This document shows, piece after piece, positions 11,146-32,554 of a stretch of DNA of 45,397 nucleotides. This DNA is from Paludibacteraceae bacterium (GTDB taxonomy: Bacteria > Bacteroidota > Bacteroidia > Bacteroidales > Paludibacteraceae). The notes under the pieces are model-generated. The model saw only the letters and a program-made list of their open reading frames with translations, was not told the origin of the DNA and searched no databases. The position numbers and the translations under genes were made by a program. The stretch spans positions 1-45,397 of the forward strand of contig JAILLP010000001.1 of NCBI GenBank assembly GCA_024693065.1, in the 5' to 3' direction. Position 1 is the stretch's first letter, and each line of letters opens with the position of its first letter.

Positions 11146-12396
11146 TTAATCGATGAGGATAGGCAATCCTTCGAGGTCAAGCTTTGCGTTCTCGTCGATA
11201 GCGACGGTACCCGCCTTCTTGATGACGATCTTCACGCCCGGATATGCCTTGGCGCTCTCCTTGGCGCAAGATGCAACGCAATAGTCGTAGCACAAACCGA
11301 CGAGGTGTAGCTCCTTTACGTTGGTGAGGTTCTGCAACACATTGATGCCGTACTCCTCCACGCTGATGTTCATGCCTTTGTTGAGTGTCAAAGCCCTAAC
11401 CTGCAGGTGGGCGAAGTCTGCATCGATCTCAGCGCCTTTCTCACCCTGTACGCAGTGGTTAGGCCACATGCCCCCCTGCGCCTTGAAAGAGCAGTGGTTA
11501 GCCGGGTGCCAGTCTTTCGTGAAGATGATCTGGTCATAATCCTCCCCCTTCACGAGGTCGAAGATCGCCTTCTTCGCCTTGTTCCACTTCTCCACACCAA
11601 CGCCCATGCTACCGTCGATGAAGTCATTCTGCGCATCGATGATGGCCAGCACCTTCTGGGAAGGAACGAACTTAGGCAGGTTCAGCAATTTAGTTTTCCA
11701 GCTCATACCCTTGATCTTCTGCTCGATTTTCTGAGCCACCGCCGGGTCCACCTCGTCGAACTTACCCCTTGCGACCCTTTCCACGTCAGCATAGGTGAAG
11801 CCGAGGTTCTCCTCGTCCGTCTTTCCGCACATACCGTCGGAAGGAGCCTTCTTGACGAATTTCTCAGGCAAGCCCAGCTCAAGGCCCAAGTTTATCACAT
11901 CGTTTACGAAAAGGTTCGCCAACGGAGCGAAATCGCCCGCACCGTCCCCCCACAAGGTGAAGTAACCCATGAGGCACTCGGACAAGTTGCCGTTGTTAGA
12001 GATACGACAGTTACCGATTATGGCAGCCACACCATATAGGGTCGCCATCCTTAGGCGAGAAGGCGTGTTCGTCTTGAATTGGGGCGTCAGCTCACCACCC
12101 GTCTTGCGCATGATCTCGTTACTGATCCCCACATAGGCATCGTTAATATTGACCTCGTAGCTCTTGATGCCCAAGAACTCGATCAATTGTTTAGAATCCG
12201 CGATGTCGCTCTGCACACCGTTCGGCATCATGACACCCACCACTCTCTCTTTGCCCAACGCAGCCACGCAAGCCGCAGCCACCACCGAGCTATCCTTACC
12301 GCCGCTGATACCGATCAGCGCCTTCGTGTCCTTGTCTCCGTTCTTGGCGAAATAGTCCCTGATCCAAGCAACCATTTCATCTTTGATCCTCTTCAT
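11146..12396 (-). CDS. nadE-pncA: Fused NH3-dependent NAD synthetase / nicotinamidase
   Basis: 416 residues with two enzymes in one chain. Residues 1-~240 are an NAD+ synthetase: ATP-pyrophosphatase P-loop SGGKDSS (31-37) and KTDEENLGFTYADVE (192-206). The glutaminase domain is absent, so free ammonia is expected as N donor. Residues ~248-416 are an isochorismatase-fold nicotinamidase: Asp254 in IIDAQNDFIDG, metal ligands in DWHPANH (295-301), Lys340 and catalytic Cys373 in GLCYDYCV. Nicotinamidase makes nicotinate; NAD synthetase amidates nicotinate adenine dinucleotide. Together with the upstream PncB this gives every Preiss-Handler step except NadD. A good Shine-Dalgarno (AAGGAGG) precedes the ATG. 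It is last in the operon. Confidence 0.92.
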   Translation of the reverse strand: MKRIKDEMVAWIRDYFAKNGDKDTKALIGISGGKDSSVVAAACVAALGKERVVGVMMPNGVQSDIADSKQLIEFLGIKSYEVNINDAYVGISNEIMRKTGGELTPQFKTNTPSRLRMATLYGVAAIIGNCRISNNGNLSECLMGYFTLWGDGAGDFAPLANLFVNDVINLGLELGLPEKFVKKAPSDGMCGKTDEENLGFTYADVERVARGKFDEVDPAVAQKIEQKIKGMSWKTKLLNLPKFVPSQKVLAIIDAQNDFIDGSMGVGVEKWNKAKKAIFDLVKGEDYDQIIFTKDWHPANHCSFKAQGGMWPNHCVQGEKGAEIDADFAHLQVRALTLNKGMNISVEEYGINVLQNLTNVKELHLVGLCYDYCVASCAKESAKAYPGVKIVIKKAGTVAIDENAKLDLEGLPILID

Positions 12397-18202: not shown

Positions 18203-19054
18203 TTAAAGGATCATTTTCTCGATAGGAACCACCAAGATACCCTCCGCACCCAACGCCTTCAGTTGGCTGATGATGTCCCAGAAGGTTTTCTCCGAGATGA
18301 CGGAGTGGAGCGAAGACCAGCCTTCCTTCACCAATGGAGTGACGGTCGGCGCCTTCATGCCTGGGAGGATCTCGCACACTTGCTTGATCTTATCGTTCGG
18401 GATGTTGAGGATGATATACTTCTTGCCCTCAGCGTTCTTGTAGGAGTCGAAGCGGAACAGGAGCTCGTCGAGGATCTGTTTCTTCTCGCCGCTCAATTGA
18501 GGGTTGCCGATGAGGATGGCCTCGGAGTTCAGGACCACCTCCACCTCCTTCAGGTTGTTGCTGACGAGGGTGCTGCCGGAGCTGACGATGTCGAAGATGC
18601 AGTCCGCCAACCCGATGCCAGGGGCGATCTCCACCGAGCCCGTGATGACGTGGATCTCCGCCTTGAGTCCGTTCTTGTCCAGGAACTGTTGCAGGATGTA
18701 AGGGTAGGAGGTGGCGATCTTCTTTCCGTTGAACCATTCCAACCCTTGGTAGTCCACCGCCTTAGGAATTGCCAAAGAGAGGCGGCACTTGCTGAAGTCG
18801 AGGCGTTTGATCAGATCGGCCTTCTCGTGGCGCTCCACGTATTCGTTCTCACCCACGATACCTACGTCGGCGATACCGCTCGCCACCGCCTGCGGGATAT
18901 CATCGTCGCGCAGATAGAGGATCTCGACTGGGAAATTGGAGGCTGGAACCAACAGGGTTCTCTTGCCCGAACTAATCTTGATGCTGGACTCCGACAACAT
19001 GGTCATCGTCTCTTCAAACAAACGGCCCTTGGCCTGAACTGCAATTCTTAGCAT
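18203..19054 (-). CDS. hisG: ATP phosphoribosyltransferase, long form
   Basis: 283 residues from the ATG at 19054 (MLRIAVQAKGRLFEETM); an upstream in-frame extension to 19117 overlaps the attenuator and is rejected. Motifs: ASGIADVGIVGEN, and SSGSTLVSNNL (PRPP-binding loop). The length and C-terminal ~80 residues (KYIILNIPND..., ...ALGAEGILVVPIEKM) indicate the long HisG with the ACT-like regulatory domain that gives histidine feedback inhibition and needs no HisZ. First enzyme of histidine biosynthesis and first gene after the leader peptide. Confidence 0.94.
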   Translation of the reverse strand: MLRIAVQAKGRLFEETMTMLSESSIKISSGKRTLLVPASNFPVEILYLRDDDIPQAVASGIADVGIVGENEYVERHEKADLIKRLDFSKCRLSLAIPKAVDYQGLEWFNGKKIATSYPYILQQFLDKNGLKAEIHVITGSVEIAPGIGLADCIFDIVSSGSTLVSNNLKEVEVVLNSEAILIGNPQLSGEKKQILDELLFRFDSYKNAEGKKYIILNIPNDKIKQVCEILPGMKAPTVTPLVKEGWSSLHSVISEKTFWDIISQLKALGAEGILVVPIEKMIL

Positions 19055-19086
19055 ATTGAATATTATTGTTTTGTTATTATTTCCTG

Positions 19087-19152
19087 AAAAAACAAAAGGC
19101 TCACCGAATCTCGGCAAGCCTTATTATATCGCACACACAACCGCTCACCGAA
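19087..19152 (-). promoter_or_regulatory. his attenuator: antiterminator segment and intrinsic terminator
   Basis: Minus strand. The terminator stem (19122-19096) pairs AAGGCT with AGCCTT and CCGA with TCGG around symmetrical TG/TG bulges, then TTGTTTTTT (19095-19087). An upstream segment TTCGGTGAGC (19152-19143) repeats the terminator's 3' arm and can therefore pair with the 5' arm instead. That segment begins one base after the leader peptide stop codon. A ribosome resting at the stop would mask it (termination); one stalled at the His codons would leave it free (antitermination). Confidence 0.85.
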
Positions 19153-19400: not shown

Positions 19401-20747
19401 TCACGGTACTCTGTCATATTCGCCCATGAAGAGGATCAATCCCGTGCTGTTCTCGCGGATGGCGAAGGCGAACGGACGGTTGCAGTCTATATAATATACA
19501 GGTTCATGTTTGTTCTCTCCTTCACATATTGATAGGGTAGCTGGGATGGAAGTGACAACAGCCGCTTCGGTACCCTCTTCGCTTACGGACAAGAAATAGT
19601 CTTGGCGGATTTGTCCGATTTTTACGTCCCCATCGGGATCGCGAACTGCAGGGTACTTGGAAAATATGTCCTTGATGTTCAAATTACTCAGGATGGATTC
19701 GAATGAGTACCACCCCATGCTTTCAAATTTAGGCATGTACAATATACAGTTTTCGGCTCTGAAAGAGAGGGCGTTCCATTGAATGGATGGCAACACGTTG
19801 TCGAGCGAATGCCCTTTTTTCGGCAAGACGACAATCATGGAGTAATCTTTATTATAGTATAATTTGACGGCTTGATAGTTACGGGTCTCCGTGTAAGCTA
19901 ATTGGTAGTCGTCGCGGATGTAGTCGATATTCATGAACGTCGTCAGTTCTGTTTCCCCTTGCGTTCCATAGAATTTACGTTCCTTAGGCATCAACTTAAA
20001 TTTACATTCCCATTTCGCCCCGAAATAGCAGGCGTTGTTAATCAACAGCCGTGTGGAGTCTGTGATGTCCACACTTAATGATTTGATACGGTCTTTGGTC
20101 GCAAGTGCCGCCCAATTGTTGATGGTTGCCGCTGCGGCGCCCGGATTATTCTTAAAATCGAGGTGCCTGACGGTTGAGTAATATTTCTCCTTTGCCGTTT
20201 TTATGAAATCATTGCGGACCGGAGTCCCTTGGTTGACCCATAGTGCATTGGCGGTGTGGATCTCCGCGTCATTGGTCGTTAAATTGAGGGAACTGTATAG
20301 TTTCTGGTAGAAGTTGTTCATCTCCTCCAGTGCGTTTTCTCCTTGGAATCCAAGGACGTCTGTGATCTCCTTCGCTCCCTTTTCGGAGGCTCCGTTGGCG
20401 CATACACCCAACGCTATGTTGAGGCTGATAGGTGAAAAGAATTTGATGGCGGACGAATCCATTTTTCGTAATTGGGCATAGCAATTCATGGCGAACTGGT
20501 TATTGCTTTTCACGAATGGTTGCTCCTCTTCCGCCACTTCAAGCGAAATCTGCTCGTCGGATTCGGGTGGCAACACCCAATCGTTCAATTGGCTACTGGT
20601 GGTGTCTGAATCCCCCGCAGTGACGCTACTGTCAGCCTTTTCGCGACCAGCCACATCGTTTTGTCCAGGGTTTGGAGTTTGGCAGCCGAACAAGCCTGCT
20701 GTCAGCAATGTCATGCCCAAAATTAAGAATGGAGCTCTGTTTTTCAT
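19401..20747 (-). CDS. Serpin 1 (lipoprotein member of the array)
   Basis: 448 residues. Unlike its neighbours it starts with a lipoprotein signal (LLTAGLFGC, lipobox Cys at ~22) and lacks the MQVWLKNGE motif; an acidic linker follows. The serpin fold begins ~80. Shutter FFSPISLN, strand NNACYFGAKW and C-terminal NRPFAFAIRENSTG are present. The hinge SEEGTEAAVVTS has the small residues of inhibitory serpins. By the alpha-1-antitrypsin register P1-P1' would be Ser-Ile (PATLS|IC). The loop is the longest of the array (31 residues from P15 to the residue before NRPF). There is no acidic run after the Cys, so surface export is not indicated. Last gene of the array, behind a strong terminator. Confidence 0.9.
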   Translation of the reverse strand: MKNRAPFLILGMTLLTAGLFGCQTPNPGQNDVAGREKADSSVTAGDSDTTSSQLNDWVLPPESDEQISLEVAEEEQPFVKSNNQFAMNCYAQLRKMDSSAIKFFSPISLNIALGVCANGASEKGAKEITDVLGFQGENALEEMNNFYQKLYSSLNLTTNDAEIHTANALWVNQGTPVRNDFIKTAKEKYYSTVRHLDFKNNPGAAAATINNWAALATKDRIKSLSVDITDSTRLLINNACYFGAKWECKFKLMPKERKFYGTQGETELTTFMNIDYIRDDYQLAYTETRNYQAVKLYYNKDYSMIVVLPKKGHSLDNVLPSIQWNALSFRAENCILYMPKFESMGWYSFESILSNLNIKDIFSKYPAVRDPDGDVKIGQIRQDYFLSVSEEGTEAAVVTSIPATLSICEGENKHEPVYYIDCNRPFAFAIRENSTGLILFMGEYDRVP

Positions 20748-20781
20748 GTTACCATGTTTAAAATCATATGTCTAAGATAGT

Positions 20782-20820
20782 AAAAAAAATGGTGAGGACA
20801 ATCAATTTTTGCCCTCACCA
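20782..20820 (-). terminator. Intrinsic terminator between serpins 2 and 1
   Basis: TGGTGAGG and CCTCACCA form an 8-bp stem followed on the minus strand by eight T. It lies 26 bp after serpin 2's stop and only 34 bp before serpin 1's start, so serpin 1 needs read-through or a promoter inside this spacer; none is evident. Confidence 0.85.
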
Positions 20821-20845
20821 ATGATTATTTGACTATTCGATCAAG

Positions 20846-22249
20846 TTAGTTGCCTCCTGGCACATCGTCATACTCGCCCATAAAGAGCAGAAGGCCAGTC
20901 GTATTCTCACGGATGACGAAGGCGAACGGACGGTTGCAGTTCATTTTGAATTTAGCTTCAGGAAGCATCATTTTGATATCTGCCACAACGGAGGTAACAA
21001 CAGCGGCTTCTGTTCCTTCCTCATCCACTTTAACAAAATAATCCTGAGCGATTTGGCTTACATATAATGACTCCATTGGATCAATGATCGCATTAGGGTA
21101 TCTTGTGAAGATATCACTGATCTCCAATTCTGACAACACATTAGCTAACTGATAATTACCCCTCATTTCAAACTTAGGCATTATCACATTACAAGTTTGT
21201 TTTTGGAATGGAATAGAGTCCAGTTGAAGCGTCGGCAACACCTCATCAAGGGTGCGACCCTCTTTCGGTAATATCACGATCATGCTGTAGGCCCACGTTT
21301 GGGTCGTATCTTTCATGTCAAAGTCTCCGTTGGCATAGTCCAACACAACGGCTTGGTAATCATTTGTTTCAGCACACTTCATGTATTTACTTTCAATCTC
21401 CATGAATTCAGTTCTTTGGGACTGATTTTGTACACCCGAAAATACATTTTCCCCGAGACCTTCGAAAGGGAATTTCCACTTCGCTTTGAAGTAGCAGGCG
21501 TTGTTGAGGACGAGTTGCGTATTAGGAATAACATCTATAGAGAGCGATTTTATACGATCGTTGGTCATAAGGGCTGCCCAACTATTTATTGTATCCAATG
21601 CGCCTTGTGGATTACTGCCAAAACTCAGATGTCTAACCGTCGCATAATATTTTTCCCTTGCCTGCGACAAGAACTCACCATAGACAGCGGCTCCCTCTTG
21701 CACCCATAGCGCGTTGGCGGTGTGGATGTCCACGCTATCGACGTTCGAGTTGAGGGAGAGGTATACCTTCTGGTAGAAGTCGTTCATGTCCTTCAATGCG
21801 TTCTTTGATTGGAATCCTAAGGCGTCGGTAATCTCCTTGGCGCCCTCAGTGGACGCGCCGTTGGCGCAGAATCCCAAGGCCATGTTGAGGCTGACCGGCG
21901 AGAAGAAATGGAGAGATCTTGGCTCCGTTGATCCTGGCTTCACCGGCAACTTGCGGACCTTAGTGTAGCATTCCAGGGCGAATGCGTTGTTAGCTCGCAC
22001 GAACGTTTGCTCTTGTGCGCTTAACTTAAGCGGATTCGGCTTGGAGAATGTCGGAGGCATGGTATTCTCCAACAACGGTTGGTACACCTCACCCGGAAAT
22101 CTCTTGAAGGTGACGCTGTCCACCTCATCGATGTTAAACACTTGTTGTTCACCGTTCTTCAGCCAAACTTGCATGTTGCTTGGCGTCTCGGCGAATGATG
22201 CGGCACAGAATGTCAATGCCGCAAACCCTACTAATAAACTTTTTCCCAT
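20846..22249 (-). CDS. Serpin 2
   Basis: 467 residues from the ATG at 22249, chosen because the start MGKSLLVGF aligns with other array members (an ATG at 22255 is also possible). Signal peptide ending CAASFA, then the N-terminal motif MQVWLKNGE...VDEVDSVTF. Serpin signatures: HFFSPVSLNMALGFCANGA, NNACYFKAKW, hinge DEEGTEAAVVTS, NRPFAFVIRENTTG. Predicted P1-P1' is Lys-Met (VADIK|MM), the only basic P1 in the array, suggesting a trypsin-like target. Conserved Cys residues occur in helix A (ALECY) and before NRPF. Predicted to be exported across the inner membrane. Confidence 0.92.
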   Translation of the reverse strand: MGKSLLVGFAALTFCAASFAETPSNMQVWLKNGEQQVFNIDEVDSVTFKRFPGEVYQPLLENTMPPTFSKPNPLKLSAQEQTFVRANNAFALECYTKVRKLPVKPGSTEPRSLHFFSPVSLNMALGFCANGASTEGAKEITDALGFQSKNALKDMNDFYQKVYLSLNSNVDSVDIHTANALWVQEGAAVYGEFLSQAREKYYATVRHLSFGSNPQGALDTINSWAALMTNDRIKSLSIDVIPNTQLVLNNACYFKAKWKFPFEGLGENVFSGVQNQSQRTEFMEIESKYMKCAETNDYQAVVLDYANGDFDMKDTTQTWAYSMIVILPKEGRTLDEVLPTLQLDSIPFQKQTCNVIMPKFEMRGNYQLANVLSELEISDIFTRYPNAIIDPMESLYVSQIAQDYFVKVDEEGTEAAVVTSVVADIKMMLPEAKFKMNCNRPFAFVIRENTTGLLLFMGEYDDVPGGN

Positions 22250-22295
22250 ATCCATCTAATTTTAAATTAATAAAAAGTCTTCGCAAACATTTGCC

Positions 22296-22330
22296 GAGGA
22301 GGAGGCGCGGAGTGTCCGTGCCTCCTCCTC
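22296..22330 (-). promoter_or_regulatory. Strong hairpin upstream of serpin 2
   Basis: GAGGAGGAGGC and GCCTCCTCCTC form a perfect 11-bp stem, extended inside by CGGA/TCCG pairing. It lies 47 bp before the serpin 2 ATG and about 200 bp after the serpin 3 stop. There is no T-tract. It could be an mRNA-stability element, a U-poor terminator or a regulatory leader. Confidence 0.5.
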
Positions 22331-22528
22331 AACAGAATATCATACAGTGGAATCCTTGCGGAGTTCCAAAATCATTCATCGTCTGGTCGACAGGGGTATC
22401 CCCCTATCTGTTTAGTCCCTTATGGACGTAAATTATTATAAGTCATAAAGATAAGAAAAACTTTTCAATTTTCAGCGATTGACCAATCTTTTTAATATAA
22501 ATTTTTAATTGACCATATTGAACCAGCA

Positions 22529-23974
22529 TTAATTTCCTTCCTCCTGTGGCACGAAGTCATATTCTCCCATGAAGAGGATCAGTCCCGTGGCATTCTCACG
22601 GATGACGAATGCGAACGGACGGTTGCAGAACATAGAGAAATTTGGGTCATGCATTCCTGTGGTTTCTTCGACCTCAACGGTCGTGACGGCGGCAGCCTCC
22701 GTTCCGAGCTCGTCCACCCTCAGGAAATAATCTTGGATCACATTAGAGACCGCATAAGGATTGTCTCCTTGGTAAAGCTCTATCGCATTAGGGAAACTAT
22801 TGTATATGTCTTCGATGCCCATTGAATTGATGACGTTCAGTCCAGGGGTGGTGTCATTCAGGTTATATCCGCCCTTGACCTTGATCTTCGGCATATAGAT
22901 ATTGCATGCTTTATACTTGAAAGGGATGGAGTCCCATTGGAAGGTAGGCAATAGCTCGTCAAGACTATGGCCCTCCTTCGGCAGTACGACAATCATGCTG
23001 TATGCGGTGGGTGATTCATCTCCCCATTCTATCTCCTCTCCGCTTGAATAGTCCAAACTGACGGCGTCATAGTTGTCCGTCTCTGCGCATTTCAGCTTCT
23101 GCATTTCGATCTCCATGAAATCTGTTGCCTCAGGATCTCCTACTGATCCGTAAAATATGCTCTTGTTATAAGGTTCGAATGGAATTTTCCATTTCGCGTT
23201 GAAGTAGCATGCGTTGTTAAGGACAAGTCTTGTCCATGTGTCTATATCGACGCTAATGTTCTTGATGCAATCGTTGGTCATCAAGGCGGCCCACTTGTTG
23301 ATGGTGTCTTTTGAGCCGTCAGGATCCCCCCTGAAATTGAGGTGTCTGACCGTCGCATAATACTTCTCCTTGGCAGTCTCCAAGAAATCCTCGAGGACAT
23401 TGTTCTTATTGTCCGCCCATAATGCGTTGGCGGTGTGGATGTCCACGCTGTCAACATTCGAATTGAGGGAGCAATAGAGCTTCTGGTAAAAGTTATTCAT
23501 GTCCTCTAACGCATTCTCCGTATGGAAGCCTAGCGCATCTGTGATCTCCTTGGCACCTTCCTCGGTGGCACCGTTAGCGCAGAAGCCTAAAGCGAAGTTG
23601 AGGCTGACCGGCGAGAAGAAATGGACAGGTCTCGGTTGAGGTTCCTCTTCTTTCATTTGGTTTTTAGGAAGCTTCCTGACTATCTGGTAACACTTTTGGG
23701 CGAACTCATTATTCGCTCTGACGAAAGCCTGCTCCTGTTCATTCACCACAAGCGGATTGGGCTGGGCGAACTTTGGTGGCATGAAGTTCTCTGTCAGCAG
23801 AGTAATCTCCGGATTCTTGTATGTGCCGAAGGTGACACTGTCCACTTGATCGATGTCGAAAATCTTTGGTTCCCCGTCCTTCAGCCAGACCTGCATTTTG
23901 TCTGGTGTGCCGGCGAACGATGCGGCGCTGATGGTTAGTGCCGCAAACCCTAATAGTAAAGTTCTTTTTTTCAT
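22529..23974 (-). CDS. Serpin 3
   Basis: 481 residues from the ATG at 23974 (MKKRTLLLGF), preferred over a GTG two codons upstream. Signal peptide ending ISAASFA, then MQVWLKDGE...DQVDSVTFG. Serpin motifs: HFFSPVSLNFALGFCANGA, NNACYFNAKW and NRPFAFVIRENATG. Hinge DELGTEAAAVTT (Leu for Glu at P16). Predicted P1-P1' Thr-Thr within EVEETTG, with three acidic residues at P5-P2, unlike any other member. Helix A Cys (AQKCY) and pre-NRPF Cys are present. Longest protein of the array, with extra residues after helix A (KNQMKEEEPQPRP). Confidence 0.92.
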   Translation of the reverse strand: MKKRTLLLGFAALTISAASFAGTPDKMQVWLKDGEPKIFDIDQVDSVTFGTYKNPEITLLTENFMPPKFAQPNPLVVNEQEQAFVRANNEFAQKCYQIVRKLPKNQMKEEEPQPRPVHFFSPVSLNFALGFCANGATEEGAKEITDALGFHTENALEDMNNFYQKLYCSLNSNVDSVDIHTANALWADNKNNVLEDFLETAKEKYYATVRHLNFRGDPDGSKDTINKWAALMTNDCIKNISVDIDTWTRLVLNNACYFNAKWKIPFEPYNKSIFYGSVGDPEATDFMEIEMQKLKCAETDNYDAVSLDYSSGEEIEWGDESPTAYSMIVVLPKEGHSLDELLPTFQWDSIPFKYKACNIYMPKIKVKGGYNLNDTTPGLNVINSMGIEDIYNSFPNAIELYQGDNPYAVSNVIQDYFLRVDELGTEAAAVTTVEVEETTGMHDPNFSMFCNRPFAFVIRENATGLILFMGEYDFVPQEEGN

Positions 23975-24011
23975 AAGCACTATTTTAATTTAAAATTCAA
24001 AACTCAAAATT

Positions 24012-24093
24012 CCCTAGGGCGTTGCCCTAGGCTATATATGTTACGCCCCTTCAGGGCTAGGAAGTGCGCATCATGTAAAGATACGCACTTCCC
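24012..24093. repeat. Hairpin-rich intergenic repeat, serpin 4-3 spacer
   Basis: Three successive inverted repeats: CCTAGGGC-gtt-GCCCTAGG, GCCC-cttca-GGGC, and GGAAGTGCG...CGCACTTCC. The same module recurs at 25646 and 28770. Confidence 0.8.
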
Positions 24094-24096
24094 TCA

Positions 24097-24170
24097 ATTC
24101 TTAACTCTTAATTCTTAACTCTTAATTCTTAACTCTTAATTCTTAATTCTTAATTCTTAATTCTTAATTC
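24097..24170. repeat. Heptanucleotide tandem repeat at the 3' end of serpin 4
   Basis: About ten copies of a 7-bp unit (TTCTTAA or CTCTTAA) run up to and into the stop codon of serpin 4. The repeat gives stop codons in multiple frames on the minus strand. Confidence 0.8.
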
Positions 24171-25585
24171 TCTGCTTTTGGCACGGAGTTATATTCTCCC
24201 ATGAAGAGCAGGAGTCCCGTGGTGTTTTCGCGGATGGCGAAGGCGAACGGATGGTCGCAGTACATGTAGAATGATTCCATGACACCAGATCCACCAGCTC
24301 CCACGAAGGAGGTTACGGCTGCGGCTTCAGTACCGTTCTCATCCACATTGATGAAGTAGTCTTGTTGAACTTGTTGAATAAATATGTTTTTTTCATTCAA
24401 TATGACGTTCGGATAATGGCCGAGTTTGAACATGTCCTCGATGTTAAGTTCCTTGAGAATATGATCTAGCGGATAACCACCCATGGTTTTGAATTTAGGC
24501 ATGTAAATGTCTCCTTTCCTGTATCGGAAGGGGATGGAGTCCCATTGAATGGTCGGAAGTACTTCGTCCAGTTTGTGCCCGTCTTTCGGCAATACGACGA
24601 CCATGCTATAGGCGCTTGGGGTCGCACTGTTCTGTCCCCCCCATCTTGCCGAAGGTTTGTTCGCCTCCGTTCCGTAATCCAGTTTGATTGCTTGATAATA
24701 TTCATTCTCCGAGTATTCCAATTGTTCGTCTCTAATAATCATGAAATCTGTGGAGTCTGAGGCGTCCGTCGCTCCGTTGAAAACCATCTTTCCGAGGGGT
24801 GTGAATTTCGTCACCCAGTCTCCTTTGAAATAGCAGGCGTTGTTGATGACAAGCCGAGTGTAGCCATCTATTTTTATTCCGAGGTTTTTGATGCAATCGT
24901 TGGTCATGAGCGCCGCCCAATGGTCTATCGTGTCCTTTGAGCCTCCAGGATCTTTCATGAAGTCGAGGTTTCTAACGGTCGCATAGTATTTTTCTTTTGC
25001 GGTTTCCACAAAATCCATGTTGGCTACGCTGCGTTCGTTGAGCCATAGGGCATTGGCCGTACGGACTGTCACGCTATCGACTCCGGAGTTGAGGGAGAGG
25101 TATATCTTTTGGAAGAAGTTGTTCATGTCATCCAAGGCGTTCGCCGAATGGAAGCCTAATGCGTCGGTGACCTCCTTTATACCTTCATCGGTAGCTCCGT
25201 TGGCGCAGAAGCCCAGGGCGATGTTGAGGCTGATCGGGGAGAAGAAGTACACAGCCATAGGATTTCCATCGGCGTCTTGGGTGGTTCGTAAAATATTGTA
25301 GCACTTTTTCCCGAACTCGTTGGTGCTCTTCACGTATGCCAGTTCCTGTTCCGACAGTTTGAGCGGATTAGGTGCGGCGAACGTCGGAGGCAGGGTGTTC
25401 TCCGTCAGTGGCTGGTATTCCTGTTGTTGGGTCACGCCGAAGGTGACGCTGTCCACCTGGTTGATGTCGAAAACCCTTTGCTCACCGTTCTTCAGCCAGA
25501 CCTGCATGTTTTCCGGTGTGCCGGCGAAGGAGGCGAGGCTGAGCGCCAACGCTGCAAATTCTATGAGTAATGTTCTTTTTCCCAT
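24164..25585 (-). CDS. Serpin 4
   Basis: 473 residues. Signal peptide ending SLASFA, N-terminal motif MQVWLKNGE...NQVDSVTFG, then serpin fold: YFFSPISLNIALGFCANGA, NNACYFKGDW, hinge DENGTEAAAVTS (Asn at P16) and DHPFAFAIRENTTG. Predicted P1-P1' Gly-Ser in the small-residue loop VGAGGSGVM, suggesting elastase- or subtilisin-like targets. The middle (EYYQAIKLDYGTEANK, then TPSAYSMV) and the C-terminus YNSVPKAEN closely match serpin 6, while the N-terminal GVTQQQE block resembles serpin 7: a mosaic. Confidence 0.92.
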   Translation of the reverse strand: MGKRTLLIEFAALALSLASFAGTPENMQVWLKNGEQRVFDINQVDSVTFGVTQQQEYQPLTENTLPPTFAAPNPLKLSEQELAYVKSTNEFGKKCYNILRTTQDADGNPMAVYFFSPISLNIALGFCANGATDEGIKEVTDALGFHSANALDDMNNFFQKIYLSLNSGVDSVTVRTANALWLNERSVANMDFVETAKEKYYATVRNLDFMKDPGGSKDTIDHWAALMTNDCIKNLGIKIDGYTRLVINNACYFKGDWVTKFTPLGKMVFNGATDASDSTDFMIIRDEQLEYSENEYYQAIKLDYGTEANKPSARWGGQNSATPSAYSMVVVLPKDGHKLDEVLPTIQWDSIPFRYRKGDIYMPKFKTMGGYPLDHILKELNIEDMFKLGHYPNVILNEKNIFIQQVQQDYFINVDENGTEAAAVTSFVGAGGSGVMESFYMYCDHPFAFAIRENTTGLLLFMGEYNSVPKAEN

Positions 25586-25645
25586 GAAGCTTATATTTAA
25601 TTCTTAATTCAAAATTGACTTCGTCGAACTAACGTTTCATAATTT

Positions 25646-25730
25646 CCTAGGGCGTTGCCCCAGGCTATATGTGTTACGCCCTTTCAGGGCTGGGAGTTTG
25701 CGCATCGTGTAAAGATACGCATTCTCCCAT
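25646..25730. repeat. Hairpin-rich intergenic repeat, serpin 5-4 spacer
   Basis: A diverged copy of the module: CCTAGGGC-gtt-GCCCCAGG, GCCC-tttca-GGGC, GGGAG..GCG...CGC..CTCCC. Compensating differences keep the last stem (GGAAG/CTTCC elsewhere, GGGAG/CTCCC here). Confidence 0.8.
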
Positions 25731-25756
25731 AATTCTTAATTCAAAATTCATAATTC

Positions 25757-27142
25757 TTAATTTCCCGGTGCGTAGTCATATTCTCCCATGAAGAGGATCA
25801 GCCCCGTTTTGTTCTCGCGGATGGCGAAGGCGAACGGGTGGTCGCATGTCATCGTAAAGCGCTGCTGTACGATAGCTCCGCCAAGAGTTCCCACAATGGA
25901 GGTGACAGCCGCGGCTTCGGTACCTTCCTCATCCACGCTGATGAAGAAATCTTGACGAACTTGAGAGATATAGATAGGGAATTCCTCAACAGCATTAGGA
26001 TAGTCCTCAAATATATCTTTAATGCCTAGTCTAGGCAGTACATCCTTTTCTAGATCGTATCCTCCGTCGCTCTTGAATTTAGGCATGAATAGGTCTCCTT
26101 GCATGCTTCTGAAGGGGATGGAGTCCCATTGGATGGTAGGCCATACCTCGTCGAGGTCGTGGCCTTTCTTCGGTAGCACGACAATCATGCTGTAGGCGGC
26201 GCTTTCTGCCGATGCATTCTGGGATCCAGTGTTTTTGGACTCTTGCCCATAATCCAGCTTGATGGCTTGGAAATTATCCGTTTCCGAGTAATCCATATAC
26301 CTGTCATAGATACCCATGAATTCTGCGGAGTCCTTCTTGGTCGTTCCGTTGAATAACGCCTTGCCGACAGGGGTGAATTTCGTCACCCAGTTGCCTTTGA
26401 AATAGCAGGCATTGTTAATCACGAGTCTGGTGTCCGATGTTATATTTATTCCAAGGTTTTTGATGCAATCGTTGGTCATGAGTGCCGCCCAATGGTCGAT
26501 AGTATCTTTGGATCCTAGGGGATCGTTCTTGAAATCAAGGTTTCTGACAGTCGCATAGTAAGATTCCTTGGCGGTGTTCACGAAATTCTCCTTGGCCTTG
26601 GTACCCTCATTGACCCACAATGCGTTGGCGGTGTGGATATCCACGCTATCGACCCCCGAATTAAGGGAGAGATATAGTTTTTGGAAGAAGTTGTTCATGT
26701 CCGCCATCGCATTCTCTGATGTGAATCCCATGGCGTCAGTGATCTCCTTCGCTCCTTTTGCAGTAGCCCCGTTGGCGCAGAAACCCAAGGCGATGTTGAG
26801 GCTGACAGGAGAGAAGAAATGAACTGGTGTCGTGTCCAATTTGCGCATGAGGGCGAAACACTTCGAGCCAAACTCGTTGGTGCTCTTGATGTACTTCAGT
26901 TCCTGGTCGTTCACCTCGAGCGGAATAGGCGCGGCGAATGTCGGTGGCATGGTGTTCTCGGTCAGCGGCGTGTATTCCTGCTGAGGACTATTGCCGAAGG
27001 TGACGCTGTCCACTTGGCTGATGTCGAAGACGCTATATTCTCCGTTCTTCAGCCATACCTGCATGTTTTCCGGTGTGCCAGCGAAGGAGGCGAGGCAGCT
27101 CGCCAATGCTGCAAATCCTATGAGTAATGTTCTTTTTCCCAT
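25757..27142 (-). CDS. Serpin 5
   Basis: 461 residues, shortest of the signal-peptide members. Signal peptide ending CLASFA; motif MQVWLKNGE...SQVDSVTFG. Serpin motifs HFFSPVSLNIALGFCANGA, NNACYFKGNW, hinge DEEGTEAAAVTS, DHPFAFAIRENKTG. Predicted P1-P1' Gly-Gly (VGTLG|GA), small residues. The N-terminal ~65 residues (EYSVFDI, SPQQEYTPLTENTMPPTF) match serpin 6, whereas KENFV.TAKESYYATVRNL in the centre matches serpin 7. Helix A Cys (GSKCF) and pre-DHPF Cys are present. Confidence 0.92.
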   Translation of the reverse strand: MGKRTLLIGFAALASCLASFAGTPENMQVWLKNGEYSVFDISQVDSVTFGNSPQQEYTPLTENTMPPTFAAPIPLEVNDQELKYIKSTNEFGSKCFALMRKLDTTPVHFFSPVSLNIALGFCANGATAKGAKEITDAMGFTSENAMADMNNFFQKLYLSLNSGVDSVDIHTANALWVNEGTKAKENFVNTAKESYYATVRNLDFKNDPLGSKDTIDHWAALMTNDCIKNLGINITSDTRLVINNACYFKGNWVTKFTPVGKALFNGTTKKDSAEFMGIYDRYMDYSETDNFQAIKLDYGQESKNTGSQNASAESAAYSMIVVLPKKGHDLDEVWPTIQWDSIPFRSMQGDLFMPKFKSDGGYDLEKDVLPRLGIKDIFEDYPNAVEEFPIYISQVRQDFFISVDEEGTEAAAVTSIVGTLGGAIVQQRFTMTCDHPFAFAIRENKTGLILFMGEYDYAPGN

Positions 27143-27153
27143 GAAGCTTATAT

Positions 27154-27195
27154 TTAATTCTTAATTCTTAACTCTTAATTCTTAACTCTTAATTC
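27154..27195. repeat. Heptanucleotide repeat between serpins 6 and 5
   Basis: About six copies of the TTCTTAA/CTCTTAA heptamer fill most of the 46-bp spacer and run into the serpin 6 stop codon. Confidence 0.75.
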
Positions 27196-28610
27196 TCTGC
27201 CTTTGGCACAGAATTATATTCTCCCATGAAGAGGATCAGCCCCGTTCTGTTCTCGCGGATGGCGAAGGCGAACGGACGGTTGCAGTACATGTTGAAACTT
27301 CTTCCCGAACCACCCCATTGGGATGCCACGATAGAGGTGACCGCCGCGGCTTCTGTGCCTTCCTCGTTCACATTGATGAAATAGTCTTGCCGGACTTGGC
27401 TGATGAATATATTTTCCTCCAATACGGCATTGGGATATATTTCAAATATAGTTCTGATTCCCAAGTAGTCTTTAAGTAATCTTTCAAGATCGTATCCTCC
27501 GTTGGCTTTGAATGTAGGCATGTAGATGCTGCCGGTCATGCGTTCGAAGGGGATGGAGTCCCATTGGATGGACGGGAGCACTTCGTTCAGGTCATGCCCA
27601 CTTTTCGGCAATACGATGACCATGCTGTAGGCACTTGGGGTCTGGACATTTTGACTCCCCCATGTTGTTGAAGCCTTGTTCGCCTCCGTCCCGTAGTCCA
27701 ATTTGATCGCTTGGTAATATTCATCCTCTGAGTATTCCAATGTTTCGCCTTTAAGTGACATGTATTCTGTAGAGTCTGCCTCATGCGTTCCGTTGAATAA
27801 CGCCTTGCCGGCGGGGGTGAATCTCGTTACCCAGTTTCCTTTGAAATAACATGCGTTGTTAATCACGAGTCGGGTGTTTGAACCTATTTTTATTCCAAGT
27901 TTTTTGATGCAATCGTTGGTCATGAGTGCCGCCCAATGATCTATTGTGTCCTTTGAAGGTATGGGGTTTTCCCTGAAATCGAGTTTTCTGACGGTCGCAT
28001 AGTATTTCTCCTTTACGGTTTTTACAAGATTCATGTTGACGGGGCTTTGCTCGTCGAACCATAGGGCATCGACGGTTCTGATTGTCACGCTATCGACGTT
28101 GGAATTGAGGGAGAGGTATAATTTGTTGAAGAAATCGTTCATGCTGTCCAAGGCGTTCAGGGCATTCCCCGATGGGAAGCCCATCGCTTGGGCGATTTCT
28201 TTTATGCCCACAGTGTCAGCTCCGTTGGCGCAGATACCTAGGGCCATGTTGAGGCTGACAGGAGAGAAGAAATGGATGGGGAAAGGGTCACCATTTTCCT
28301 TCTTGTTTGTTCGAAGTCTCGCATAGCATTTTTTCCCGAACTCATTGGTACTTTTCACGTATGCCAGATTCTGCTCCGACAACTCCAACGGAATAGGGGC
28401 GGCGAACGTTGGTGGCATGGTGTTCTCGGTCAGCGGCGTGTATTCCTGCTGAGGACTTGTGCCGAAGGTGACGCTGTCCACCTGGTTGATGTCGAAGACG
28501 CTATATTCTCCGTTCTTCAGCCAGACCTGCATGTTTTCCGGTGTGCCGGCGAAGGAGGCGAGGCTGGTCGCCAACGCTGAAAATACTATGAGTAATGCCT
28601 TTTTTTTCAT
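27189..28610 (-). CDS. Serpin 6
   Basis: 473 residues. Signal peptide ending SLASFA; motif MQVWLKNGE...NQVDSVTFG. Serpin motifs HFFSPVSLNMALGICANGA, NNACYFKGNW, hinge NEEGTEAAAVTS, NRPFAFAIRENRTG. Predicted P1-P1' Trp-Gly (VASQW|GG), the only aromatic P1, suggesting a chymotrypsin-like target; if the register shifts, the Arg five residues on could act instead. Sister of serpin 4 in its centre and C-terminus (YNSVPKAEN in both). Only 46 bp from serpin 5, so probably co-transcribed with it. Confidence 0.92.
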   Translation of the reverse strand: MKKKALLIVFSALATSLASFAGTPENMQVWLKNGEYSVFDINQVDSVTFGTSPQQEYTPLTENTMPPTFAAPIPLELSEQNLAYVKSTNEFGKKCYARLRTNKKENGDPFPIHFFSPVSLNMALGICANGADTVGIKEIAQAMGFPSGNALNALDSMNDFFNKLYLSLNSNVDSVTIRTVDALWFDEQSPVNMNLVKTVKEKYYATVRKLDFRENPIPSKDTIDHWAALMTNDCIKKLGIKIGSNTRLVINNACYFKGNWVTRFTPAGKALFNGTHEADSTEYMSLKGETLEYSEDEYYQAIKLDYGTEANKASTTWGSQNVQTPSAYSMVIVLPKSGHDLNEVLPSIQWDSIPFERMTGSIYMPTFKANGGYDLERLLKDYLGIRTIFEIYPNAVLEENIFISQVRQDYFINVNEEGTEAAAVTSIVASQWGGSGRSFNMYCNRPFAFAIRENRTGLILFMGEYNSVPKAEN

Positions 28611-28641
28611 GAAAACTATATTAAACTTTTAATCAAAAATA

Positions 28642-29072
28642 TCCATGTTACGCCCTTTCAGGGCTCCTTTTGCTCACTCATTCATCGCACAGGGGTTGAC
28701 ACCCCTGCCTGGGGGATGTCGCCCCTAAGGGGCTTAGGGAGTGTGCATCATGTAAAGATACGCACTTCCCCTAGGGCGTTGCCCTAGGCTATATATGTTA
28801 CGCCCTTTCAGGGCTATATTGGCACCCTTCGTTTTGCGCACAGGGGTTGACACCCCTGCCTGGGGGATGCCGCCCCGTTGGGGCTTAGGGAGTGTGCGTC
28901 ATGTAAAGATACGCACTTCCCCTAGGGCGTTGCCCTAGGCTATATATGTTACGCCCCTTCAGGGCTATATTGGCACCCTTCGTTTTGTGGGGGGTGACAC
29001 CCCTGCCTGGAGGATGTCGCCCCGTTGGGGCTAGGGGTTTGCGCATCATGAAAAGATACGCACTTCCCTTAA
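28642..29072. repeat. Tandem array of a 151-bp hairpin-rich repeat, serpin 7-6 spacer
   Basis: Nearly three copies with a 151-bp period (CCTAGGGC blocks begin at 28770 and 28921; a partial copy precedes). Each unit carries up to five small inverted repeats: CCTAGGGC/GCCCTAGG, GCCC/GGGC, CAGGGGT/ACCCCTG, GCCCC/GGGGC and an arm pair around CATCATGTAAAGATA. The spacer holds no gene. Confidence 0.88.
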
Positions 29073-29103
29073 TTCAAAATTCTTAATTCAAAATTCTTAA
29101 TTC

Positions 29104-30507
29104 TTAATTATCCTCTGGTACCGAGTCAAATTCCCCGATGAAGAGGATCAGTCCAGTCCTTTTCTCGCGGATAGCGAAGACGAACGGGCGATTGCATCTC
29201 ATGATGGTAGGAGGAGTCATATCAGGCTCGCCACTACTCTCCGCATCCATTATGATGGAAGTGACAGCCGCCGCCTCGGTGCCGAACTCATCCACACTGA
29301 TATAAAAATCCTGACGGACTTGAGAAACGGATATTTTACCATCTATCTCCTCGTCCTCAATAGCGTTAGAGAATTCGTGGAAAATATTATTGATGCCTAA
29401 ATTCGGTAGGATTCTATCTATGTCATATCCATCTTTGCTTTTGAACTTAGGCATATACAAAGAGACCTTTTCATACTTGAAAGCTATGGAATCCCATTGG
29501 ATAGTAGGCAACACCTCGTTCAGGTCATGACCGCTCTTTGGCAATATGACGACCATGTCATAAGCGTTGTGGAAGAGTGTGGATTCCGATATGGTGCCGT
29601 AATCCAAGTTGACGGCCTGGTAGTTGCTTGTTTCCGCATAATTCTGATACTCGTCAATAATGCTCATGAATTTTGCCGTCTGCGTTCCCTCTTTCCCCTC
29701 GAATTCAGCTACCGAATCCTCTGCGAAAGGGGAGATCCATGCGCCTTTAAAGTAGCAAGCATTGTTGATTACAAGTCTCGTCAATTCCGATACTCTTATT
29801 TGGAGATCATCGATGCGATTGTTGGTCATGAGCGCCGCCCAATGGTCGATGGTGTCTTTGGATCCTAGGGGATCTCCTTCGAAATCAAGGTTTCTGACAG
29901 TTGCGTAGTAAGATTCCTTGGCGGTCTTCACGAAATTCTCCTTGGCCACGGAACTCTCGTTGATCCACAATGCGTTGGCGGTATGGACATCCACGCTGTC
30001 GACCCCCGAATTGATGGAGAGGTATAACTTATGGAAGAAATCATTCATGTCTTCCATAGCGTTCTCCGATTGGAAGCCCAATGCGTTGGCTATCTCTGTC
30101 GCCCCTCCCTTTGAAGCACCGTTGGCGCAGAAGCCCAGTGCGAAGTTGAGGCTAACAGGAGAGAAGAAATGAATTGGGAGATTAGTCCCGTCTTTCTTTT
30201 TTGTCTCACGCAATTTTGCGAAACATTTCAATCCGAACTCATTGTTTCGCTTAATATATGCTAACTCCTGAGCGTTCACCTCAAGCGGAATAGGCGCAGC
30301 GAATATCGGTGGCATGGTGTTCTCGGTCAGCAGGTTATGCTCCTGTTGCTGAGCCACGCCGAAGGTGACGCTATCCACTTGGCTGATGTCGAATACCCTT
30401 TGTTCACCGTTCTTCAGCCAGACCTGCATGTTGTCCGGTGTGCCGGCGAAGGAGGCGAGGCTGAGCGCCAACGCCGAAAAACTTATGAGTAATGTTCTTT
30501 TTTTCAT
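29104..30507 (-). CDS. Serpin 7
   Basis: 467 residues. Signal peptide ending SLASFA; motif MQVWLKNGE...SQVDSVTFG. Serpin motifs HFFSPVSLNFALGFCANGA, NNACYFKGAW, hinge DEFGTEAAAVTS (Phe at P16), NRPFVFAIREKRTG. Predicted P1-P1' Glu-Ser (IMDAE|SS), an acidic P1 that would fit a Glu-specific protease. Loop long: 30 residues from P15 to the residue before NRPF. The C-terminal signature differs slightly (LFIGEFD for LFMGEYD). Central segment shared with serpin 5. Confidence 0.92.
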   Translation of the reverse strand: MKKRTLLISFSALALSLASFAGTPDNMQVWLKNGEQRVFDISQVDSVTFGVAQQQEHNLLTENTMPPIFAAPIPLEVNAQELAYIKRNNEFGLKCFAKLRETKKKDGTNLPIHFFSPVSLNFALGFCANGASKGGATEIANALGFQSENAMEDMNDFFHKLYLSINSGVDSVDVHTANALWINESSVAKENFVKTAKESYYATVRNLDFEGDPLGSKDTIDHWAALMTNNRIDDLQIRVSELTRLVINNACYFKGAWISPFAEDSVAEFEGKEGTQTAKFMSIIDEYQNYAETSNYQAVNLDYGTISESTLFHNAYDMVVILPKSGHDLNEVLPTIQWDSIAFKYEKVSLYMPKFKSKDGYDIDRILPNLGINNIFHEFSNAIEDEEIDGKISVSQVRQDFYISVDEFGTEAAAVTSIIMDAESSGEPDMTPPTIMRCNRPFVFAIREKRTGLILFIGEFDSVPEDN

Positions 30508-30567
30508 AAAACTATATTTAATTCAAAATTCATAATTGAATACGTCGAGCTAACGTTTCAAAATCAT

Positions 30568-30696
30568 CCATGTTTCGCCCTTTTAGGGCTCCTTTTGCCC
30601 ACTCATTCATCACACAGGGGTTAACACCCCTGCCTGGGGGATGTCGCCCCGTTGGGGCTTAGGGAGTGCGCATCATGTAAAGATGCGCACTCCCTA
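30568..30696. repeat. Hairpin-rich intergenic repeat, serpin 8-7 spacer
   Basis: One partial unit of the 151-bp repeat without the CCTAGGGC part. It has CAGGGGT-taac-ACCCCTG, GCCCC-gtt-GGGGC and GGGAGTGCGCATC...GATGCGCACTCCC. The last stem is longer and fully paired here. Confidence 0.8.
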
Positions 30697-30715
30697 AACT
30701 CTTAATTCTTAATTC

Positions 30716-32101
30716 TTAATCCTCCTTAGACACCTCTTCCACCTCCGTCACCTTTCCCATGAAGAGCAGCATGCCGGTGGTCATTTCCCGGATGGCGAAA
30801 CCGAACGGGCGGTTGACGAACATTTCGGCCATATCCTCTGGAGGAACGGCACCGGTCATCCCGATGGATGTGACAGCGGCGGCCTCCGTTCCCTCCTCAT
30901 CCACCGCGACGTAGGAATCCTGCACGATTTGTGTCACCGAAGCAGGAGCATTGATGGCGTTAGGACAGCTTGAGAATATGTCTGTGATGCCAAATCCGGC
31001 CACTGTTTCATTTAGGTTAAGACTGCTGCGGATTCCGAATTTCGGGAAGCGGAGGAATACGTAGTTAGTGCTGAGTCGCAAGTCATTCCAGTCGACGGAA
31101 TTGAGCGTCGTGTCCAAGTCTTTGCCCTCCGCAGGCAAGACAATCACCATGCTGTAGGTACCCTTGCCGTTGTTGGATATCATGCGATCTGAAGGACCGT
31201 AGACGAGTTCCACCATTTGGTAATCATCTGTTTTCGCGTAGGAGTAATACGATAGCGATTGCATCATGTTGACGCTTTGGGTCTTACTTGGGGCGTTCCA
31301 GAACGTATCTTTCCTTGTCATGTTCTTTTCGATAGGGATCCTCCATTTGCCTTTGAAATAGCATGCGTTGTTGAGGACGAGGACGGTGGAATTGTCTATG
31401 AGGACACTTAGTTTCTTGATACAATCGTTGGTCATGAGCGCCGCCCATTTGTCTATGGTATCTTTTGCGGCATCAGGATCAGACTTGAAATCCAGGTGTC
31501 TGACCGTGGCGTAGTATTTCTCTTGAGCTGCCTTGAGGAAGTCGTCGTACACGGAAGCTCCCCAGACTGGCCATGCGGCGTTGTTCACGCTTAGGATGAC
31601 GCTGTCCACCTGTGAGTTGAGCGAGAGGATGACCTTGTTGAAGTAGTCGTTCATCTCCTCCAATTGTTTCTTCCCTTGGATGCCGAACGCGTCCGCTATC
31701 TCCTTGGCTCCCTTGTTGGTGGCTGCGTTGGCGCAAAAGCCCAAAGCGATTTGCAGGCTGATTGGGGAATAGAACGTGTTGGGGTTGGTACTGTCTATCT
31801 CGCAGACAGAGGCGAACGATTTCTTGGCGAATGTGTTGCCTGCGCGGACAAACTCCTTTTGCACGTCGGAAAGCATGAGGGCGGTCGGACTCTCAACCGT
31901 AGGGATGTAGGTCCAATCGCATAATGGTTTAAAATCAGGCGTTAAGCGTTCTCCGAAAGTGACACTGTCCACTTGATTGATGTCAAATACTTGTTGTTCT
32001 CCGTTTTTCAGCCATACTTGCATTCTGTTTGGTGTCTCGGCGAACGATGCCGCACAGAGCAATAAAGCTGAAAACCCTGTGATGATTTGCTTTTTTTTCA
32101 T
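30716..32101 (-). CDS. Serpin 8 (first gene of the array)
   Basis: 461 residues from the ATG at 32101 (MKKKQIITGF), chosen over a start at 32128 because AGGAGG lies 8 bases upstream of it. Signal peptide ending CAASFA; motif MQVWLKNGE...NQVDSVTFG. Serpin motifs FYSPISLQIALGFCANAA, NNACYFKGKW, hinge DEEGTEAAAVTS, NRPFGFAIREMTTG. Predicted P1-P1' Ala-Val (GMTGA|VPP), suggesting an elastase-like target. Most divergent signal-peptide member: NNAAWPVWGAS replaces the usual TANALW block, and both the helix A Cys and the Cys before NRPF are missing. The only array member with a clear promoter. Confidence 0.92.
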   Translation of the reverse strand: MKKKQIITGFSALLLCAASFAETPNRMQVWLKNGEQQVFDINQVDSVTFGERLTPDFKPLCDWTYIPTVESPTALMLSDVQKEFVRAGNTFAKKSFASVCEIDSTNPNTFYSPISLQIALGFCANAATNKGAKEIADAFGIQGKKQLEEMNDYFNKVILSLNSQVDSVILSVNNAAWPVWGASVYDDFLKAAQEKYYATVRHLDFKSDPDAAKDTIDKWAALMTNDCIKKLSVLIDNSTVLVLNNACYFKGKWRIPIEKNMTRKDTFWNAPSKTQSVNMMQSLSYYSYAKTDDYQMVELVYGPSDRMISNNGKGTYSMVIVLPAEGKDLDTTLNSVDWNDLRLSTNYVFLRFPKFGIRSSLNLNETVAGFGITDIFSSCPNAINAPASVTQIVQDSYVAVDEEGTEAAAVTSIGMTGAVPPEDMAEMFVNRPFGFAIREMTTGMLLFMGKVTEVEEVSKED

Positions 32102-32302
32102 GCGAAAACCTCCTATTATAGTAAACACTATAGTTTTTAATCAATAATGTTTTCCGGAATTAAAAAACCCTTATTGCAATTTGTTGTATAATAATTATAT
32201 AATAATGGTCGAATGTGTGTCTTTCTGTGCATTTTTCGCAGATCAGGCTAAGATGTCAGATCCGTTTTTTCATCCTAAATAATACACTCCACCTGTTTTT
32301 TG

Positions 32303-32333
32303 CAAATATACAAATGATCGCATTATTTTCAAA
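32303..32333 (-). promoter_or_regulatory. Bacteroides-type promoter of the serpin array
   Basis: Minus strand TTTG (32333-32330), 19 bp, TATATTTG (32310-32303). This fully matches the consensus. The leader to serpin 8 would be about 195 nt. No comparable promoter was seen in front of the other serpins. Confidence 0.8.
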
Positions 32334-32471: not shown

Positions 32472-32554
32472 GCCCAAGTGGTGGAATGGTAGACACGCTA
32501 GTTTCAGGGACTAGTGGCCGTACGGCTGTATGAGTTCGAGTCTCATCTTGGGTA
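32472..32554 (+). tRNA. tRNA-Leu (anticodon CAG)
   Basis: 83 nt, class II tRNA. Acceptor GCCCAAG pairs with CTTGGGT (G1-T72 wobble), discriminator A. Anticodon stem CTAGT/ACTAG with loop TTCAGGG gives CAG, reading CUG Leu codons. A long variable arm (GGCCGTACGGCT region) and T-loop GTTCGAGTC are present. CCA is not encoded. The 3' end is 17 nt before the ATG of the next gene. Confidence 0.95.

Follow-up and report, generated by a model that had tools for sequence, protein, structure and literature searches.

A tandem array of eight serpin genes with divergent bait loops in a Paludibacteraceae bacterium, probably encoding a repertoire of exported inhibitors

Described serpins and the eight-gene array

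Here we describe a tandem array of eight serpin genes in a Paludibacteraceae bacterium, contained in a stretch of 45,397 nucleotides that we refer to as the window (GenBank assembly GCA_024693065.1, contig JAILLP010000001.1, positions 1 to 45,397 of the forward strand). All eight genes lie on the minus strand and are numbered S1 to S8, S8 being the first of the array and S1 the last. The best profile hit among solved structures is miropin of Tannerella forsythia (PDB 5ncs, 5nct, 5ncu and 5ncw; E 2.1e-67), and conserpin outscores it when S2 alone serves as the query. Miropin is an inhibitor of serine as well as cysteine proteases, from host and microbes alike (PMC6718151, PMC8201313), and makes use of several bonds (PMC8201313); miropin-like bacterial serpins constitute group T of Spence et al. 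2021 (PMC8233489). Like the array serpins, miropin carries the hinge GTEAAAVT and, by our own count on the alignment, a 27-residue loop, and by this comparison the long loops of S1-S8 are no special feature. Miropin differs in offering one loop with several usable bonds where the array has eight loops, in keeping the shutter His where the array serpins have Gln, and in that its solved chain lacks the VWLKNG N-terminal module of S2-S8.

Three further systems invite comparison. Siropins 1 and 2 of Eubacterium siraeum are likewise a pair of bacterial paralogues in which the hinges are conserved and the loops have diverged, with 48% identity in the loop and 63% overall without the signal sequence; unlike the array, they are two genes, both directed against the same two elastase-like proteases, with one judged intracellular (PMC5127057). 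Endozoicomonas genomes also hold several serpin genes each, plotted by the authors as serpins per Mbp, and multiple of these serpins change expression with coral extract; this is however an unrelated phylum, and the part of the paper drawn on here mentions neither a tandem array nor loop diversity (PMC9296628). In animal serpin clusters the loops diverge and the remainder is conserved, and the bovine SERPINA3-1 to -8 cluster resembles the array in its eight genes (plus a pseudogene) on one scaffold, although it is a vertebrate locus of 235 kb in which a sub-group of six members has a conserved loop (PMC2373789). Abundant serpins, with a proposed role against host proteases, have been reported from the metagenome of the cattle abomasal microbiota (PMC3170331).

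The array occupies positions 19401-32128 of the window as eight intact co-directional open reading frames of 448-483 amino acids, in agreement with the gene count of a preliminary description made from the DNA alone. Each carries a full-length PF00079 domain scoring 215 to 265.5 bits, above the curated cut-off of 27 bits, and when the complete assembly (3,477,266 bases, 37 contigs) was searched with the profile, these eight and no further serpin were returned. The interval first given for the array, 19401..32333, is correct as far as 32128, but its last 200 bases hold no serpin codons and contain a promoter-like match instead. We consider it likely, from the comparisons below, that the locus encodes a tandem repertoire of exported inhibitory serpins that present different baits and trap proteases. 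The serpin family is known; no description of an eight-gene bacterial array with baits kept by position was found among the papers listed in our literature searches, which for the broadest queries covered only the top-ranked results.

Divergent loops on a conserved, probably inhibitory scaffold

The serpin genes and their loops, measured from P15 to the residue before the [ND][RH]PF motif, are as follows.

19401..20747, minus strand: S1 serpin, 448 amino acids, last of the array, from PF00079 and alignment
19482-19574, minus strand: S1 loop, P1-P1' S-I, P1 codon 19530-19532
20846..22255, minus strand: S2 serpin, 469 amino acids, from PF00079 and alignment
20936-21016, minus strand: S2 loop, P1-P1' K-M, P1 codon 20972-20974
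22529..23980, minus strand: S3 serpin, 483 amino acids; loop 22625-22705, P1-P1' T-T
24164..25585, minus strand: S4 serpin, 473 amino acids; loop 24257-24334, P1-P1' G-S
25757..27142, minus strand: S5 serpin, 461 amino acids; loop 25844-25924, P1-P1' G-G
27189..28610, minus strand: S6 serpin, 473 amino acids; loop 27282-27359, P1-P1' W-G
29104..30507, minus strand: S7 serpin, 467 amino acids; loop 29194-29283, P1-P1' E-S
30716..32128, minus strand: S8 serpin, 470 amino acids from GTG or 461 from ATG at 32101, first of the array
30815-30892, minus strand: S8 loop, P1-P1' A-V

Loop lengths from S1 to S8 are 31, 27, 27, 26, 27, 26, 30 and 26 residues, so that both the range of 26-31 and the eight P1-P1' pairs of the preliminary description were recovered exactly. 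Its assertion of eight different loops stands for the loops as such, which diverge, but not for P1: S4 and S5 both have Gly there, leaving seven P1 residues (K, W, E, A, T and S once each, G twice). The motifs it named are likewise present in the alignment, with FFSP in seven serpins and FYSP in S8, and with NNACYF and the hinge GTEAA(A/V)VT in all eight. It had also staked its interpretation on the loop diverging more than the scaffold, and this is what was found: counting the loop for identity from P7 to the residue before the motif, the paralogues of the window's genome (G000; relatives compared are G001, G002 and so on) share 20.8% in the loop, 50.5% in the scaffold and 94.6% in the hinge. 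Values in G001, G003, G005 and G006 are similar, at 23.8-24.1% for the loop and 48.8-50.6% for the scaffold.

The sliding-loop machinery is retained throughout the genus. From 67 serpin matches, 65 could be read as frames of at least 150 amino acids, and 63 of these were aligned after two below 400 were dropped; leaving two hingeless G010 serpins out of the residue counts gives 61 hinge-bearing sequences. All 61 have Glu at P17, Gly at P15, Thr at P14 and Ala at P12 and P11, and 60 have Thr at P8; the hinge expected of inhibitory serpins, from P17 to P8 with small residues at P12-P9, is found in each of the eight array members. The equivalents of S53, S56, N186 and W194 in the shutter and breach, assigned by motif, are present in 61/61 each. 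An AlphaFold2 model of S2, built from an alignment of 20 sequences, adopts a serpin fold with a mean predicted local distance difference test score (pLDDT) of 79.8. Foldseek matched it to 415 PDB chains at E <= 0.001, of which the best 50 belong, by title and from general knowledge, to the serpin family (antithrombin, PAI-1, tengpin, miropin and others), with a tick serpin ranking highest and miropin chains appearing from rank 35 onwards. Residues 427-437 of the model (P2 to P9', P1 being 428) have pLDDT below 50, as might be expected of an exposed bait loop.

Named genomes, scanned with an alignment of the eight proteins, gave 20 loci, 18 of them from 11 genomes titled Paludibacteraceae or (uncultured) Bacteroidales bacterium and the last two from a Mediterranea and a Tannerellaceae bacterium. 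The titles of seven of these 11 genomes name the rumen, reticulum or omasum (sheep, goat, yak, water buffalo) and four name no organ; judging from these relatives, the bacterium of the window lives in the gut, probably in the rumen. Serpins are present in 12 of the 16 genomes of the genus, at one to nine matches each, and seven or eight complete genes stand on one contig in G000, G001, G003, G005 and G006. Serpins occur in 115/358 genomes of the family and in 170/393 of an order sample, surveys in which only four or five candidates were scored per genome. That bacterial serpins usually come as one or two genes, as had been stated, holds for 154 of the 169 serpin-bearing genomes of the order sample besides G000 (at most four candidates scored per genome). 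Full rescoring of 15 chosen genomes gave at most six matches, some of them gene fragments, and G333 and G603 carry three-gene tandem clusters; small clusters thus occur elsewhere, and the long array is the special case within this sample.

The array is also held in place. It lies between the following two genes, with a golvesin-domain gene beyond the tRNA gene.

18203..19117, minus strand: hisG, downstream edge of the array
32472..32554, plus strand: tRNA gene bordering the array upstream; its counterpart in the orthologous loci is tRNA-Leu

The his gene names are presumed from the protein sequences. Serpin arrays adjoin tRNA-Leu, hisG or both in seven species. G001 and G003 repeat the arrangement of the window; in G009 and G010 the two flanks fall on separate contigs with serpins beside each; G005 has the tRNA-Leu flank, hisG being absent from the stretches fetched; and in G006 the tRNA-Leu flank is present and hisG lies about 9 kb past the other end of the array. 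The stretches fetched around the serpins of G004, G007, G012, G014 and G015 showed neither hisG nor the golvesin gene. A single shared empty site was rejected, as different genes follow hisG in the stretches upstream of it in G002, G007, G008, G011, G012, G013 and G014; the G004 contig ends at that point. In a tree of the scaffold alone, with loop columns removed, genes group by array position across species, with S2 of G005 apart from the other S2s; most of the array is thus older than these species. Position 4 is an exception, G001, G005 and G006 carrying a different paralogue in place of S4.

The loops were compared between orthologues in nine groups with 47 sequences in total; five small extra groups hold 12 more sequences in total, and two serpins (one of G012, and one of G010 at L047:4711) were left ungrouped. 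The register had been set by the preliminary description before any relative was examined, so that P1 could be treated as a prediction. P1 is invariant in eight of the nine groups: Ala in seven S8 sequences, Glu in four S7, Trp in five S6, Gly in six S5, Gly in three sequences of each of the two S4 kinds, Thr in six S3 and Lys in eight S2. Within these eight groups no pair of 101 differs at P1, whereas 40% differ at P3, 29% at P2 and 34% at P1'; P' positions were counted from the hinge without gaps, and hence one-residue indels inflate the changes at P' positions. P1 is the least-changing of the 12 positions P6-P6'. With positions drawn at random within groups, the chance of such constancy is 0.022 by total changes and 0.038 by number of invariant groups for the nine groups, and 0.016 by both measures without the S1 group. 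The loops of S6 and S7 are identical throughout in all five and all four grouped orthologues, respectively. We note that the earlier proposal of distinct specificities from one locus is partly supported, in that the loops diverge and P1 stays fixed in most orthologue groups while P3, P2 and P1' change, but that the host enzymes it named as possible targets are doubtful for the reason given below.

Alternative explanations and possible targets

We propose that the array arose from a single ancestral serpin gene by duplications in place, and that the copies kept the hinge, the breach and most of the shutter while diverging in the bait loop, each thereby showing a different P1 environment that was later kept by position in related species. 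Each protein would be exported, seven by a plain signal peptide and one as a probable lipoprotein. A protease cutting the loop would then release the hinge to insert as strand 4A, and would be trapped covalently.

Several observations weigh against this proposal. Not only the bait loop is variable: of 360 windows of 18 residues, seven equal or exceed the loop window in their divergence between paralogues, namely the loop window itself, its neighbour and five more divergent ones beginning at residues 297-301 of S5, within a surface turn that is rich in gaps and is probably the s2B-s3B turn. The bait loop as the sole hypervariable region was rejected on this basis, and part of the loop divergence may be drift. 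P1 does not stand alone either, as P8 and P7 are also unchanged within groups, and the S1 group departs at P1, with Cys in four members and Ser in one. The range P6-P6' and the orthologue groups were the analyst's choice, and with all 14 groups the chance values rise to 0.052 and 0.108, two of the five added groups changing at P1. The constancy of P1 is therefore suggestive: it fits fixed, distinct specificities, at marginal rather than strong significance. Moreover, the siropins are cut at P3-P2 and P6-P5, not at the predicted P1 (PMC5127057), and as miropin too is cut away from it, the proteases met by the array cannot be read from P1 alone. Nor did structure prediction, suggested earlier as a means to fix the loop register, achieve this for S2, where the model draws P15-P4 (414-425) as a strand, perhaps in a loop-inserted form.

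Divergence between orthologues bears on the same question. Within the nine groups identity is 89.1% in the scaffold and 80.2% in the loop, and the pooled ratio of non-synonymous to synonymous divergence (dN/dS, or omega) is 0.438 for the loop and 0.215 for the scaffold, with dN of 0.108 and 0.060 at similar dS. By these rates the loop is less constrained than the scaffold but shows no general diversifying selection; positive selection on the loop was rejected as a general explanation (pooled omega 0.44), the only exception being the S3 group, in which the proportion of non-synonymous differences (pN 0.098) exceeds that of synonymous ones (pS 0.028) in 24 columns, too few to carry weight. In comparisons with G001, G003, G005 and G006, DNA identity is 96.6-99.2% for S5-S7 where orthologues exist (G006 has no S7) and 76-92% for S1, S2 and S8, again where orthologues exist, with 94-99.6% in the neighbouring his genes and 73% to 99% in other flanking genes. 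Because S5-S7 are nearly identical between species, the identity of their loops carries little weight, a further point against the proposal. Recombination between species is one reading of this mosaic, uneven constraint another.

Eight genes could accordingly supply more of one broad inhibitor, each with a multi-bond loop like that of miropin and with differences that are mostly neutral. The variability of the second surface loop, the roughly twofold rate of change of orthologue loops over scaffold without an overall omega above 1, and the cleavage of siropins and miropin away from the predicted P1 would all fit such a dosage effect with drift, as would Gly at P1 of S4 and S5, which suggests no clear specificity. 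Drift would however not single out P1 as the least-changing position of P6-P6' while its neighbours change, though the test of this is marginal, and we regard the explanation as rather unlikely.

The shutter is the other point against inhibition. The residue equivalent to His334 of alpha-1-antitrypsin, placed through the miropin and conserpin alignments, is described as highly conserved in the serpin superfamily, and alpha-1-antitrypsin with a mutated His334 tends to polymerise (PMC8198886). The shutter His expected of inhibitory serpins is absent from the array: Gln takes its place in all eight members and in 63/63 aligned genus serpins, none of which has His, as well as in 20/20 rows of alignment A2, including the Mediterranea and Tannerellaceae relatives. 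The shutter is thus not fully conserved, a substitution that the preliminary description did not mention. The array serpins might hence serve as protease substrates or turn latent, functioning as decoys, as carriers or as surface proteins to be sacrificed, a reading that would also accommodate two divergent G010 members without a hinge. PAI-1, which turns spontaneously latent, has Gln at the same shutter position. We consider this reading very improbable, given that the P17-P8 hinge, which non-inhibitory serpins often lose, and the equivalents of Ser53, Ser56, Asn186 and Trp194 are fully or nearly fully kept (n=61). PAI-1 is moreover a potent inhibitor despite its latency, and the shutter His would accordingly not be an absolute requirement.

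We note that this replacement of a residue described as highly conserved runs through the whole clade. The two hingeless G010 genes stand side by side (L049, G010:C51:83000-90000, at 2147-3577 and 3618-4991), have a similar N-terminal module and keep the shutter Gln; they are probably non-inhibitory members of the same family.

The N-termini suggest where the proteins act. By eye, each of S2-S8 opens with a plain signal peptide and continues with a short VWLKNG..VDSVTF module, and S1 opens with a lipobox-like LFGC and has no such module; S2-S8 are thus probably exported via plain signal peptides and S1 is probably a lipoprotein. No outer-membrane sorting domain was recognised by eye. Most of the serpins are probably periplasmic, and they could serve in self-protection by restraining the bacterium's own exported serine proteases, trypsin-fold members of which occur in 15 of the 16 genus genomes. 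However, three of the four serpin-less genomes (G002, G008 and G013) have trypsin-family matches too, in frames of 487-603 amino acids that appear HtrA-like by size; subtilases are found in only three of the 16 genomes, one of them serpin-less (G008); and G000 sets one subtilase and two trypsin-family matches against eight serpins. In searches for the subtilisin and trypsin-fold families only, the bacterium's own S1- and S8-family proteases did not co-occur with serpins across the genus and were rejected as partners, and we consider self-protection improbable.

Returning to a repertoire of exported inhibitors, its most likely targets would be proteases that gain access to the cell envelope of this forestomach dweller, whether they come from bacterial competitors, protozoa, fungi, feed plants or tissue of the host. 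With seven of the 11 relatives coming from the rumen, reticulum or omasum, host digestive proteases are no obvious target, and microbial, protozoal and plant proteases appear at least as likely as those of the host. We put forward more tentatively, as doubtful in its full detail, that this is a single inherited locus of forestomach Paludibacteraceae, position-kept and reshuffled by recombination between species, with seven or eight fixed baits (Lys, Trp, Glu, Ala, Thr, Gly and Cys/Ser at P1) on a single exported scaffold marked by its Gln shutter, directed against the mixed proteases of competing microbes and protozoa.

Surroundings of the array and its significance

Within and ahead of the array the following elements were found.

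20790..20820, minus strand: terminator-like hairpin with a T run between S2 and S1, a weak match
24012-24093: part copies of a dispersed repeat, S4/S3 spacer
28640..29071, minus strand: dispersed repeat of about 150 bp, three copies in a row, S7/S6 spacer
30566-30694: further copy of the dispersed repeat, S8/S7 spacer
32303..32333, minus strand: Bacteroidetes-type promoter-like match (TTTG, TANNTTTG) ahead of S8

The promoter-like match is the only one near the array. Under the Bacteroidetes promoter consensus the window has three against 0.82 expected, and 7 of 100 shuffles reach three, so the match is weak; terminator-like sites, at 14, do not exceed the shuffle mean of 14.5. The dispersed repeat has 53 full or partial matches in the genome, is rich in hairpins (GCCCC..GGGGC and GCCCT..AGGGC palindromes), resembles repetitive extragenic palindromic elements and is a possible recombination substrate. 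No Rfam element reached the gathering threshold in the spacers, the only two matches in the window being tRNAs.

That the N-terminal module is exclusive to the serpins was rejected, since a module of the VWLKNG..VDSVTF type also occurs in a 419-amino-acid protein on contig C27 (48% identity, E 0.025); it may mark exported proteins of the genus in general. That protein (L093 382-1641, G000:C27) starts with VWQKDG..VDSITF, is apparently secreted and looks like a GH5 cellulase, a label we presume from its sequence. A DUF4995 assignment at the serpin N-terminus was rejected (best E 0.0092, in four of eight members, with the one member listed in detail falling short of the cut-off), and a single weak NCBIfam capsid-protein match below cut-off was set aside.

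Elsewhere in the window, a two-gene unit is repeated in tandem (4454-7319 and 7777-10667), encoding a protein of 776-784 amino acids, which had no Pfam match in the copy tested, and one of 153; the other two promoter-like matches lie upstream of each unit (7541-7572 and 10885-10916). At 11146-12396, one open reading frame apparently joins parts resembling NH3-dependent NAD synthetase and nicotinamidase and adjoins nudix and nicotinate phosphoribosyltransferase genes, in what we take, from these presumed names, to be an NAD-salvage cluster.

In conclusion, a single cell here provides eight naturally occurring loops on a common scaffold, so that P1 residues that differ between neighbours and stay fixed between species could be assayed side by side. 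The clade is at the same time a natural instance of Gln in place of the shutter His. If the proposed repertoire is correct, the locus would be the bacterial equivalent of animal serpin clusters with diversified loops, and would furnish inhibitors that differ in specificity.

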